In this document: positions 6,218 through 17,363 of the stretch, piece after piece
Layout of the letters: each line of letters begins with the position of its first letter
Position numbering within the stretch: the first letter of the stretch is position 1
IMG/VR virus record: IMGVR_UViG_3300028800_000258
Span: 1 to 29,526 of that record
Strand: one strand, 5' to 3'
DNA length: 29,526 bases
DNA from: a virus
Program-made: the position numbers and the translations under genes
Notes under the pieces: generated by a model
What the model saw: the letters and a program-made list of their open reading frames with translations, nothing else
Database searches by the model: none
Told to the model about the DNA's origin: nothing

Positions 6218-7091
6218 CTATGCAGCGGCCGTGATTCCAGTAAGAACACCAAGACGGAACGGAGCCGTTGAAATGAGCTGTCCGCCGATGATCATGAATC
6301 CATTTACTGTTCCTTGGTTATAGGCTTCGATCATTCCTGTCCAAGTAAACGTATCCTTCGGGTCGTAGAACTTATCCTCATAGACGTTTCCATAAACATC
6401 TTTCGCTTTAGGAGAAACTCTCTCTCCTTTCCACCACTTTAAGCCGTACCACTCCAAGAACTTCGTATTTAACATATAGAAGCTGCCTGTCGTGATTTTC
6501 TTATCGCGGGAGATAATCATTCCATCCCACCGCTGATCCGAGTAACCTGAGGTCTCTGCCACTCTCCTATCGGAAGGCGCAAAGTCCTGATTGTTCCTCT
6601 GGAACGGGGTCTGAAGTTGCTCGAAATAAGCCCACGTTGTGTAGTCCGTGATGATCATGTCGGGTTCAATCGGTCCATCCGAGATAGCGTTCCACAATGT
6701 ACGAACCTGAACCAACGAAATTGCGTTGTTGGTCGAAGCCGTAACGGTAGAGCTGAGTCCCGAATAGGTCGCACGGGTCAAACCTCCATAGGTCGCCGCC
6801 ACGGTGCCGTTGTCTACGGTGTTCGCAAGACCATTCGGGGCTTTTCCACCGAACGAGGTGCCATCACCTTGCAAGAAATTACCGAAGTCGTCGGATGCGT
6901 CCTGCGCGCGCGATTCCATTGTTACGCTCATAAGTTTAAGCGTCTGCATGGAAGTGTTGTTTATGCTGAGGTCGGAACCAGCGAGCGAAACATTTGTAGC
7001 CACGAAGGTGGGATAAAATGTCAGGTCAACTGATACCGGCTGTTGAGTGATAGGAAGAAGGTCATAGCCATTGAAAGCTACGGAAGAAACA
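6218..7091 (-). CDS. Major capsid protein, 3' exon
   Basis: This exon encodes residues 51-341 of the major capsid protein. In frame it begins with VSSVAFNGYDLL and runs through FYPTFVATNVSLAGSDLSIN, GGLTRATYSGL, DMIITDYTTWAYFEQLQTP and WWKGERVSP to GVLTGITAAA. This layout matches HK97-fold phage capsids: an E-loop-like N-terminal part, a GGL-R...Y segment, then D-xI-T--W--FE-L--P. No start codon precedes the exon; a GTG at 7003 would cut off conserved sequence, and the frame upstream runs into intron RNA and a stop. Removal of the intron at 7092-7789 restores one 341-residue protein, within the usual capsid size. The stop is TAG. Confidence 0.8.
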
Positions 7092-7207
7092 CCCTTTTGG
7101 TACTTACAATTTTGTTACTCGCCTTACGGCGGGAGAAACCGCTTCGGATTTCTCTCACGATGTCTCCACCGTGTTCAGACTATTACATCCCTTTCGGGTC
7201 AGCTCGT

Positions 7208-7627
7208 TTAGTCGTTGAAGGCAGGAAAATTATTCGTCAATTCCTTGTTTGCAATATAAAGTTTTTCACGCTCTGCTTTTATTTCTTCTGTTACTCGCAC
7301 TCCTCTACCTTTCATAGTTTTTATGAAAAGAAGTGCGTTTTTAGCGTGTCCACCTTTTATTACAAGGAAAGGTACTAATTGTTCGAGAAGGATGCCATTT
7401 CTTGGATTCAGTGCCATAGCCCATTGATAACGGGTACGCCACTTTCCATTTTTATCGGGTCGTACGTAAGATAATCCACCAAACCTGTCTTTAATCCATT
7501 TGATTAATTCGGGTCTAGTATTTACCACATACAATCTTGCATCATATCGCCCACCACTTTTTGATATTGCGATACTTCCTTCTCCGTCTATAATACCTGC
7601 AAAGTAAGCTAGTTCTGGTTTAGTCAT
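7208..7627 (-). CDS. LAGLIDADG homing endonuclease, intron-encoded
   Basis: 139 residues with a single LAGLIDADG helix (LAYFAGIIDGEGSI, residues 6-19; acidic D14 and E16), so it should act as a homodimer like I-CreI-type enzymes. It would cut the intronless capsid allele and drive intron homing. The body (RLYVVNTRPELIKWIKDRFGG, then GHAKNALLFIKTMKGRG) fits the alpha-beta fold of the family. The gene lies wholly within the intron, and its last codons overlap the P7 5' strand. It has its own promoter, TTGACA-17-TAAGAT, with the ATG 6 bases after the -10, so it can be made independently of capsid transcription and probably from a leaderless mRNA. Confidence 0.85.
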   Translation of the reverse strand: MTKPELAYFAGIIDGEGSIAISKSGGRYDARLYVVNTRPELIKWIKDRFGGLSYVRPDKNGKWRTRYQWAMALNPRNGILLEQLVPFLVIKGGHAKNALLFIKTMKGRGVRVTEEIKAEREKLYIANKELTNNFPAFND

Positions 7628-7633
7628 AGACTA

Positions 7634-7662
7634 ATCTTATACCTATCTACTTTGCTTGTCAA
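7634..7662 (-). promoter_or_regulatory. Promoter of the intron endonuclease (leaderless layout)
   Basis: TTGACA (7657-7662), 17-base spacer, TAAGAT (7634-7639), then 6 bases to the ATG at 7627. The predicted transcription start coincides with the A of the start codon. This allows endonuclease expression before late capsid transcription. Confidence 0.65.
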
Positions 7663-7789
7663 AGAACTTTCCTTTCCTCGGCGTTATCCGTTTGTACTGA
7701 ACCTTACGGTTTTCGTCTCTTGGGAACTTCGCCGTGTATTAGAGCCAATTTTCTTTATGAGATTCGCCTCATAAAGCGACTAGTTGTTA

Positions 7790-7941
7790 ATCGGGAACAG
7801 CATCTGTGAGCCATCCCATTTCTTCGTCTTCTTCATCAACTCGCCGAAAAAGCGATTATCGCGCAATGTAATATCTACCCAGCGAGGAGCCAAGTACTGG
7901 TTCGTCGTGGTCGTTACATTCACGCCTGGGGCTGAAGCCAT
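7790..7941 (-). CDS. Major capsid protein, 5' exon
   Basis: The exon encodes the first 50 residues plus two bases of codon 51. It starts MASAPGVNVTTTTNQYLAPR at the ATG at 7941 and ends WDGSQMLFP-I at the splice site. Unspliced translation would stop after three intron-encoded residues at a TAG, giving a 53-residue fragment. The N-terminal segment (WVDITLRDNRFFGELMKK, then WDGSQMLFP) followed after splicing by VSSVAFNG matches the usual start of capsid proteins in which a K-W-G-----P motif precedes a G-S-F-G-D stretch. The upstream gene is the scaffold-like protein, as expected. Confidence 0.8.
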
Positions 7942-12324: not shown

Positions 12325-12377
12325 GCGGGCGGATTAGGAATCGGACCTAACTGGGCAAGTTTTGGAGACTCGCCCGC
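12325..12377 (-). other. Inverted repeat before the portal gene
   Basis: GCGGGCG (12325-12331) and CGCCCGC (12371-12377) are perfect complements enclosing 39 bases, which include a smaller TTAGG/CCTAA stem. The element could fold in RNA between the small gene and the portal, or simply be part of a readthrough coding extension. Confidence 0.35.
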
Positions 12378-12392
12378 TCCCAGAACCCCACC

Positions 12393-12587
12393 CTATCCCT
12401 CTTCCATCCAGTACCCCTCGAACCGAACCCTGATAACAACATCGGGTCGTTCCTTAACGGGATGATACCCTTCTATTTTTGGACGGAACACTCTGAGGTA
12501 TCTATGGGTCTTGGGGTCGTAAACATACATTCTTCGATACTGACGCTGCTTCAATCGATTATAGAGTCTCCAGACCTCTTGGTTCAT
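12393..12587 (-). CDS. Small basic protein between TerL and portal
   Basis: 64 residues, Arg/Tyr/Val-rich (RLKQRQYRRMYVYDPKTHRY), starting with an ATGA overlap with the terL stop. The stop is TAG. Beyond it the same frame stays open for 36 more codons (GVLGAGESPKLAQLG, then PAIYTIFRHLTVGVVQ) and ends with an ATGA overlap with the portal start, the local junction style. Readthrough or a recent nonsense change is therefore possible. Function unknown. Confidence 0.5.
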   Translation of the reverse strand: MNQEVWRLYNRLKQRQYRRMYVYDPKTHRYLRVFRPKIEGYHPVKERPDVVIRVRFEGYWMEEG

Positions 12588-14996: not shown

Positions 14997-15826
14997 AGGG
15001 TTATTTGAACTTGTTTTGGTTTCTTTTTCCCGCGAAAAATCGCTTCATAGTATAGTTGACGCTCCTCCCATTTCTTTCCTTGAACGTCATAATCAGCCCA
15101 GTTCAACGTATAAAATATCTCACTATCCGTTAGTTGCCAACCCTTCCAATCTACCGATTCCAACCCCTTAATAATAGCACGTTTTACCTTTGGAATCAAC
15201 CATAAAAACATTAATAACCAATATATATTCTTGAACTTATTATTGACATCTTTTGTTCTTTCCCGGCGGCGATCTATTTCCAAAAGTCTTTTAATTTCCT
15301 TAGGGAAATCCCGAATCATCATCTCCTTGCTAGTTTCGGACATCAAATCATTTAATCGGTATCGGTAAGCGTCATCATACTCGAATAGGGTAGCGATGAT
15401 TTCAGCTGTTTTATTAGACAAAGATGGACCGAACCCTTGGCGTAATAAAAATGAATTGATAAAAACCCATATCTCTCTCGAAGTGGAACAATAGTAATTT
15501 TCGGACAAATACCATTGTCCTAAGCACTTATCGGCAAACTCGTTAAATGATTTTAATGTTTTTTCGGGGCGGAAGATAACGAGAGGATTCTTCAGTAATT
15601 CCCGCAAAAATCTCTTAACCTTGTCTACCTCAGCCATCGCCACGTTAAAATCCTGATACGCTGGACTCACCCCAACTCGTGGGATTTTGATGCCTTGATA
15701 GTAGGTAAAAATCCCCTTTCCCTTTATTTCTTCTATCGCTCGCGTTTCATACACCACCACCGTAGCCCCCGATAGGGGTTGCTTTCTAGGATATTTATAT
15801 ATCTTTGCTGTTTTATTCTTTTTCAT
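14993..15826 (-). CDS. Uncharacterised protein following GroEL
   Basis: 277 residues, mixed alpha/beta, rich in aromatic and Lys residues. Segments include GIFTYYQGIKIPRVGVSPAY, an AYRYRLNDLMSETSKEM helix, a hydrophobic IYWLLMFLWLIPKVKRAII stretch that could be a buried or membrane helix, and a C-terminal GKKKPKQVQITL. The layout recalls tail-assembly chaperone-type or minor head proteins only loosely, and no motif settles the role. The ATG is 11 codons inside the end of groEL (14-base overlap), so it is probably made with GroEL. Confidence 0.45.
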   Translation of the reverse strand: MKKNKTAKIYKYPRKQPLSGATVVVYETRAIEEIKGKGIFTYYQGIKIPRVGVSPAYQDFNVAMAEVDKVKRFLRELLKNPLVIFRPEKTLKSFNEFADKCLGQWYLSENYYCSTSREIWVFINSFLLRQGFGPSLSNKTAEIIATLFEYDDAYRYRLNDLMSETSKEMMIRDFPKEIKRLLEIDRRRERTKDVNNKFKNIYWLLMFLWLIPKVKRAIIKGLESVDWKGWQLTDSEIFYTLNWADYDVQGKKWEERQLYYEAIFRGKKKPKQVQITL

Positions 15827-17363
15827 CTTTTCGGGGCAACAAGACCACCGACCCCACGGTCAAAATCGAAGCGGCAACTCCGATAGCTGCTTTGACTGCG
15901 CTCAAAACAACATCCGCAGGATCAACGATTCCCTCATCGAACATATCCACAATCTTGCCCGTCTTTGAATCGAACCCTTGAGTGGTTTTTGTAAGGGTCA
16001 AACTTTTATATATTTCATCTAAATCCTTACCGCAATTTAATACAATTTGGTCAAAAGGTTTCAATAGTACGGTTTTTAATATCTCTTCCCCTACGGTCTT
16101 ATCGTGAAGATTTGCTGATGCACTCATCAGGGCAATACCACCTCCTGCCACAATCCCATTTTCCAAAGCACAACTCGCCGCATTGATACTATCCTCCACT
16201 TTTAACCGGCGGTACGCAAGTGCAGATTCTGACTGCGCTCCCACGAAATATCTAGCGGTTTTAGTATTCAATCTCGCCGCACGATTCAACGCTTGATCTG
16301 AACCATCTACCTTGAGTGCTAAAATATGGTCATAGTTCGTATCGCCAATTTTAGTCAAATCTTTAATGCCGTCTAAGTAGGTATCTTCGGAATCTATCGT
16401 GATGTGTTCAACCGTTCCTAGGTGTTTTCTCTGTAAGTCCTGCATCTTTATTCCTTGCCCGATTACCATCCCCCCAGTGGCAAACGCTAAATCCTCCCAC
16501 CATTCATCCGCCCATAAGACAGGCATCTTCACGACGACCACCCGGAAACCAGACTGTTGCCGAAGAGCGATGAATGAATTAATCAATGTAATCTCAATGT
16601 CCTCGCAAAAGATAACGATTTCCTTGATACCTTCGTTTGATATTGCTTCCAAAATTGAATCTACCTCTTGCGCTGATATGATTTTCTTCCTCGCCAATAA
16701 AATAAGCGGATTATTCAATGTAACCTTGGTCAAAAGCCCCGTGTTCGCTAAATCGCACATATACCGTGAAACATACGTTGCCCCGTTCATTGTAATCCCC
16801 GTCCCGATAGTATAGGAATCTTCGGGGGTCTTTGAAACGTCCCAGTTAATAATCCCGTCTTTGCCGATTTTCTGGTAAATCTCCTGAATCATATTCCCGA
16901 TAGATTCATCCTCTGCGCTGATGGAAGCCACTTGACCAACCTCGTCAATGGTAATTTTCTTCGTCTGTTCTTTGATGGACTTCTCTATTTCCGGGATACA
17001 GGACTCTAAACTTCTCTTAATTTCCATAGGGCTAGCTTCGCTCAAATGTTTTAGTCCTTCTTCTAGTATCGCCGCCGTGAGAACACAGGTAGTCGAAGAA
17101 CCATCTCCCGATGCCTTATTTGCCCGATTGATAGCCTCGATTAAGATGTTCTTTCCCAAATCCTCAAGCGGATCTGCTAGAACAATACTGTTCGCAATAG
17201 TATAGCCATCGTTTGTCGTCAAATACTTCGGGCTTCTAATATCTTCGATTATTCCATTTTGCCCCGCCGTTCCCATCGTGCTTCCTACGGCTCGTGCAAT
17301 CTTTTGTATACCACTCATCATTCTTGGTCTCGCTTCTTCCGCAAAATAAAGATTTTCTTTCAT
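15813..17363 (-). CDS. groEL: Phage-encoded chaperonin GroEL (Hsp60)
   Basis: 516 residues, complete in all three domains. The ATP site keeps NDGYT (D52), GDGSSTT (D87, cellular form GDGTTT), LKVEDSINA (D391, cellular D398) and the ENGIVAGGG hinge (GGG 407-409). IVLNCG and VDPADVV near the end match the cellular IVLNCG and LDPTKVT. The apical region is recognisable (NNPLILLARKKI), but the conserved loop after KAPGFGD is replaced by MPVLWADEWWEDLA (280-293). The C-terminal GGM tail is absent. It would form a folding chamber with a GroES partner and is likely to assist phage capsid folding. The start overlaps the previous stop by ATGA. Confidence 0.9.
   Translation of the reverse strand: MKENLYFAEEARPRMMSGIQKIARAVGSTMGTAGQNGIIEDIRSPKYLTTNDGYTIANSIVLADPLEDLGKNILIEAINRANKASGDGSSTTCVLTAAILEEGLKHLSEASPMEIKRSLESCIPEIEKSIKEQTKKITIDEVGQVASISAEDESIGNMIQEIYQKIGKDGIINWDVSKTPEDSYTIGTGITMNGATYVSRYMCDLANTGLLTKVTLNNPLILLARKKIISAQEVDSILEAISNEGIKEIVIFCEDIEITLINSFIALRQQSGFRVVVVKMPVLWADEWWEDLAFATGGMVIGQGIKMQDLQRKHLGTVEHITIDSEDTYLDGIKDLTKIGDTNYDHILALKVDGSDQALNRAARLNTKTARYFVGAQSESALAYRRLKVEDSINAASCALENGIVAGGGIALMSASANLHDKTVGEEILKTVLLKPFDQIVLNCGKDLDEIYKSLTLTKTTQGFDSKTGKIVDMFDEGIVDPADVVLSAVKAAIGVAASILTVGSVVLLPRKDEKE

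Follow-up and report, generated by a model that had tools for sequence, protein, structure and literature searches.

The major capsid gene of the phage studied here lies on the minus strand of a complete IMG/VR virus record of 29,526 nt (the whole stretch analysed, hereafter the window) and is split in two. We are highly confident that what interrupts it at codon 51 is a mobile self-splicing group I intron, which carries a LAGLIDADG homing endonuclease gene and whose removal would give a capsid protein of 346 aa. A LAGLIDADG-bearing group I intron in this gene had been proposed in an earlier note on the same DNA, and it is now strongly supported by covariation and by a covariance model from whose training the window was left out.

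The first capsid exon (7790-7941, minus strand) consists of 50 codons plus the AT of codon 51 and ends in U. Its frame starts at the ATG at 7941 and reads MASAPGVNVTTTTNQYLAPRW...MLFPI, followed by NN and a stop; frame and protein alignment both agree with the 50-codon exon, from this ATG to T7790, that had been claimed. The second exon (6218-7106, minus strand) provides the T of codon 51, continues with KYQKGVSSVAFNG... and runs to the stop codon. As the earlier note had recognised, this 3' part lacks a start codon, its frame being already open upstream of 7091 and continuing so to 6218, and a gene call from the GTG at 7003, where the mechanical ORF list begins it (261 aa), truncates the protein by 85 N-terminal residues. 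The joined protein aligns without gaps across the junction with its intronless relatives (69-83% identity), and the version of it that lacks KYQKG (341 aa) matches the major head protein family phrog_9953 (E=3.6e-31). No relative was found when the capsid sequence was searched against the PDB.

The intron itself (7107-7789, minus strand) can be drawn as a standard group I structure, with the P3-P8 core, the P3/P7 pseudoknot and the R and S motifs all present. P1 (7777-7793) pairs exon CGAU and intron UA with UA.GUCG and includes the U-G pair at the splice site that is expected of group I introns (U7790-G7780); an in-frame stop codon, UAG, lies in the same region (7782-7780). This helix is short, with four exon pairs and two intron pairs, and is only modestly better than shuffled sequence (37 of 500 shuffles were as good), but a nearly identical P1 is found at the same insertion site in a contig from another metagenome, L092. 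P2 is a hairpin of CUUUAUGAG and CUCAUAAAG (7753-7776). The 5' strand of P3, UUGGCUC (7742-7748), pairs with GAGCUGA (7199-7205), P4 joins 7733-7730 to 7683-7680 and P5 joins 7725-7723 to 7689-7687 (both within 7680-7733), and P6, whose loop holds the endonuclease gene, is formed by GAGG (7676-7679) and CCUU (7218-7221). P7 consists of GACUA (R motif, 7209-7213) and UAGUC (S motif, 7178-7182), enclosing P8, CCC GAAA GGG (7189-7198), and is followed by the hairpins P9 (7173-7156), P9.1 (7154-7133) and P9.2 (7131-7120). A nested minimum-energy fold of the intron without its ORF recovered P2, P4/P5, P8, P9, P9.1 and P9.2 (z=-3.8). The P1 U-G pair, P2, P7, P8 and P9 reported previously are thus all in place. 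P10, however, had been drawn against the wrong 3' exon and is not supported; we found no convincing P10 pairing in the window intron. The P7.1/P7.2 elements of subgroup IA are absent from the window, where only three bases separate P7 from P3; longer inserts at this place occur in the first intron of L007 and in L011 and L042.

The core was compared among 13 introns from which the ORFs had been removed, 11 of this capsid family and two of another. In P3, P4, P5, P6 and P7, 98.7% of cells were paired and 40 were double-changed, the mean of shuffled alignments being 11.9 double-changed cells; none of 500 shuffles matched the observed pairing, which fell to 32-44% when the partner strand was slid by 1-3 columns; P8 was left out of this count because MAFFT misaligns it. 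The covariation is carried by P3 (double changes in five of seven pairs) and P6 (four of four), since P7 and P4 are invariant and offer no covariation evidence. The covariance search suggested in the earlier note had a divided outcome. Rfam gave no significant match in the window intron at gathering or relaxed thresholds, RF00028 scoring 13.2 bits where 50 is the gathering score, a recognition aid and not a defining property of group I introns; nor did Rfam match the sister introns of L006, L007 and L011. The family-specific model (R1), trained without the window, matched its 3' half at 7287-7108 (96.9 bits, E=3.4e-22) and its 5' half at 7759-7565 (33.3 bits, E=6.5e-7); the matches are split by the ORF, as expected, and the next best site in the window had E=0.11. 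In those intronless capsid loci that were searched with R1, no match at E<=0.01 was obtained. P4, P5 and P7 are among the helices to which both the covariation set and this model apply.

These observations also bear on the possibility that the intron is dead, the insertion having inactivated the capsid gene or splicing having been lost in this phage. We regard this as very unlikely, given that the two exons and every core helix are intact, that P3 and P6 have been maintained by compensatory change, that the endonuclease ORF and the other frames are open and that another phage has an intron at the same site.

The exact 3' boundary of the intron required a correction. The earlier note had described an intron of 698 nt ending at G7092 and a product of 341 aa joined as FPI-VSSVAFNG, and this reading does keep the frame and does have a G before the junction. 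Nevertheless it would delete the K-Y/W-Q-K-G that follows FPI, and precedes VSSVAFNG or a close variant of it, in all intronless relatives aligned, and the codons AAG TAC CAA AAG GGT stand directly before GTT in the window. The presence of KYQKG-type residues in all these relatives places the end of the intron at G7107 and makes the product 346 aa and not 341; the 3' site had been set 15 nt too far downstream, and moving it upstream by that distance retains both the full protein and the terminal G. The intron is therefore 683 nt long (7789-7107), its last base being G7107, the omega-G, and the first base of exon 2 T7106, and its removal restores the capsid gene. The restoration of the frame by AT+T stands as claimed, giving isoleucine in AT+T AAG TAC CAA AAG GGT GTT (I-K-Y-Q-K-G-V), with a predicted junction in the spliced RNA of ...CCCGAU-UAAGUACC... 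(7790/7106). That relatives continue as FPI-KYQKG-VSSVAFNG thus tells against the 3' site chosen before and leaves the group I intron itself standing. Moreover, in all 16 introns of this capsid family a T 5' of the intron together with a terminal G is the best or tied-best frame-restoring boundary. Most of their 3' ends resemble GUAACAAAWUG, and the family end AGUAACAAAWUG falls at 7107 and not at 7092; the end found in the window, GAGUAACAAAAUUG, is common to other introns of the family. We consider the 698-nt version even less probable than a dead intron.

The gene in the P6 loop (7208-7627, minus strand) encodes a LAGLIDADG homing endonuclease of 139 aa, and its stop codon, TAA, lies within P7. 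The protein has homology with Pfam LAGLIDADG_3 (PF14528; 7.6e-5, above the cut-off), with phrog_5046 (1.3e-17) and with I-MsoI (6.2e-5), aligning with I-MsoI and I-CreI over about 100 residues. The LAGLIDADG motif has its acidic catalytic residue (LAYFAGIIDGEGS) and occurs only once, for which reason the enzyme is presumably a homodimer like I-CreI and I-MsoI. Those two enzymes are likewise intron-encoded members of the single-motif class; they target organellar rRNA genes, whereas the host gene in the window is a phage capsid gene. Intronless alleles of the insertion site exist, and their sequence, CTGTTCCCGATTAAGTACCAAAA, is the putative target of the endonuclease.

A promoter-like sequence directly precedes the endonuclease gene, with a -35-like TTGACA (7657-7662, minus strand) and, after a spacer of 17 nt, a -10-like TAAGAT (7634-7639) six bases 5' of the ATG (TTGACA-N17-TAAGAT-N6-ATG). 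Taken alone, such a degree of agreement with the consensus is not rare in the region. Among 16 introns whose genes are of the LAGLIDADG or HNH type, however, 12 reach at least nine of 12 matches with the -10 placed six bases before the start, and at other offsets at most two of the same 16 do so; the start codons were chosen partly by promoter score, but in every intron except the second of L007 the codon chosen is the earliest start in the open frame. A promoter-like TTGACA-N16-18-TATAAT-N6-ATG is thus conserved at endonuclease starts across the intron loci. This spacing would put the start of transcription at or beside the start codon, so that the endonuclease mRNA is probably leaderless or nearly so, with its own sigma-70-type promoter. 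At least two other genes of the window (14606 and 10249, minus strand) have the same TATAAT-N6-ATG arrangement, so that leaderless mRNAs may be normal for this phage, or for its host.

The sequence shows the intron boundaries, the core, the homologous insertions, the intronless alleles, the endonuclease family and the promoter-like sequence; that the RNA splices, that the endonuclease cuts and the intron homes, and that the promoter is used, is inferred. A mobile group I intron inserted in codon 51 of this tailed-phage gene would fold into a P1-P9 ribozyme whose pseudoknotted core flanks the endonuclease gene. Guanosine would attack after U7790 and the freed exon would then attack after G7107, the exons being joined in frame. 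Unspliced message could give only a stub of 53 residues because of the UAG two codons into the intron. The endonuclease, transcribed apart from the capsid operon, would cut capsid alleles that lack the intron, at the conserved codons for FPIKYQKG, and the intron would be copied into them during repair.

With an alignment-based scan the set of related genes grew to 86 capsid loci, 74 of them distinct at 97% DNA identity, and in 16 of the 74, about a fifth, the gene is interrupted. The insertions occupy nine positions, at codons 20, 21, 28, 29, 51 (in two phases), 84, 85 and 124, codon 21 being the commonest. In addition, L097 has the 3' end of an intron at capsid codon 20; the contig (L097:1-313) belongs to a Candidatus Hydrogenedentes MAG bin and ends in this related capsid intron. 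The intron of L092, of 698 nt, is inserted at exactly the same nucleotide as that of the window, and in its core it comes closer to the window's than any other of the set (83%). A search with an occupied-site pattern that contained four Ns gave no match; L092 has three bases there. L007 has two introns, one lying 2 nt from the window's site (codon 51, phase 0), the other at codon 20 and with a gene of the HNH type. The endonuclease of L092 has 34% identity over 108 residues to that of the window and is closer to that of L007 (47%), from which it seems probable that endonuclease genes have been exchanged between introns.

Since the window is a single metagenomic contig, it could be suspected that an endonuclease gene was fused into the capsid gene by faulty assembly. 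L092, an independent contig, shares both site and core with the window, and many related introns with precise boundaries are found in other samples, so that such a chimera is hardly credible. LAGLIDADG enzymes are known also from inteins and from some group II introns, but the in-frame stop two codons into the insertion excludes an intein, the Rfam search gave no group II match and the full group I core shows covariation, which leaves either of these next to no probability.

Beyond the capsid family, a scan with an exact-core pattern found matches mostly in capsid genes. The same core occurs in at least two other head-protein families, phrog_1357 (L012, L016, L018, L022) and phrog_267 (L013, L015), and in one ribonucleotide reductase gene (L017). 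A preference of this intron lineage for capsid genes is only suggestive, because capsid introns supplied the seed of the scan. Tentatively, and with slightly less than even confidence, we propose that these introns form a distinct phage group I lineage lying below the Rfam threshold, specialised in major capsid genes across unrelated families and swapping LAGLIDADG and HNH genes that have a portable module of leaderless promoter in common.

Group I introns in capsid genes have been described before, in phages LittleE and Tuc2009 (PMC3706429). In mycobacteriophage LittleE (Cluster J) a group I-type insertion of 819 bp in the major capsid gene encodes a homing endonuclease, intronless homologues are known and the continuity of the capsid across the junction was established by N-terminal sequencing (PMC3706429). 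The endonuclease of LittleE is, however, of the HNH type, in the opposite orientation and in a different capsid, whereas that of the window is a LAGLIDADG enzyme in the sense orientation, in a family with insertions at many sites. Lactococcal phage Tuc2009, as cited in the same paper, has a group I intron in its capsid subunit gene. The td intron of T4 also contains an endonuclease gene with its own adjoining promoter, the late promoter of I-TevI lying directly 5' of the ORF (PMC2988022). I-TevI is a GIY-YIG enzyme whose ribosome-binding site is controlled by a hairpin, whereas the promoter in the window leaves no room for such a site. According to a review, the endonucleases most often encoded by phage group I introns belong to the GIY-YIG, the H-N-H and two further families (PMC3984707), which makes a LAGLIDADG enzyme less usual here. 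A limited search of the open-access literature found no description of the invasion of one capsid family at many sites or of a shared promoter module, and these may be the new parts.

Major capsid genes serve as phage markers, and in 16 of the 74 distinct loci ordinary gene calling would truncate or miss them; those introns that were tested are not flagged at the Rfam gathering score. The set also constitutes a natural experiment, in which one gene with nine sites combines closely similar cores with endonucleases that can be exchanged and with many alleles free of introns. It allows testing of site choice and retention in an essential gene with high expression, and of whether the endonucleases come from leaderless transcripts.

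Several loci have more complex arrangements. In L058 (4070-5020) one capsid gene holds two introns with a micro-exon of 20 nt between them (GGGTAGACCAGGTATTGCGT, codons 21-27). The phrog_1357 capsid gene of L018 (830-2573) contains three or more introns with the same core, and two of the same lineage lie in a structural-looking gene of L019 (9045-10243) for which PHROGs gave no identification. L088 (3985-4060) has at the codon-21 hotspot an insertion of 41 nt, too short for a group I intron, which starts like the intron of L058 and has a P1-like helix (CCUGCAU/GUGCAGG) and an in-frame stop; about 23 nt of exon follow, and then an intron at codon 29. This insertion can be read as a deletion remnant, a bypassed sequence or an assembly error. 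Elsewhere in the window, a gene at 15813-17363 (minus strand) encodes a phage-borne GroEL-like chaperonin (phrog_5725, E=3.5e-92), and a tRNA-Trp (CCA) gene is placed at 12325-12398 (minus strand) between the portal and terminase genes.
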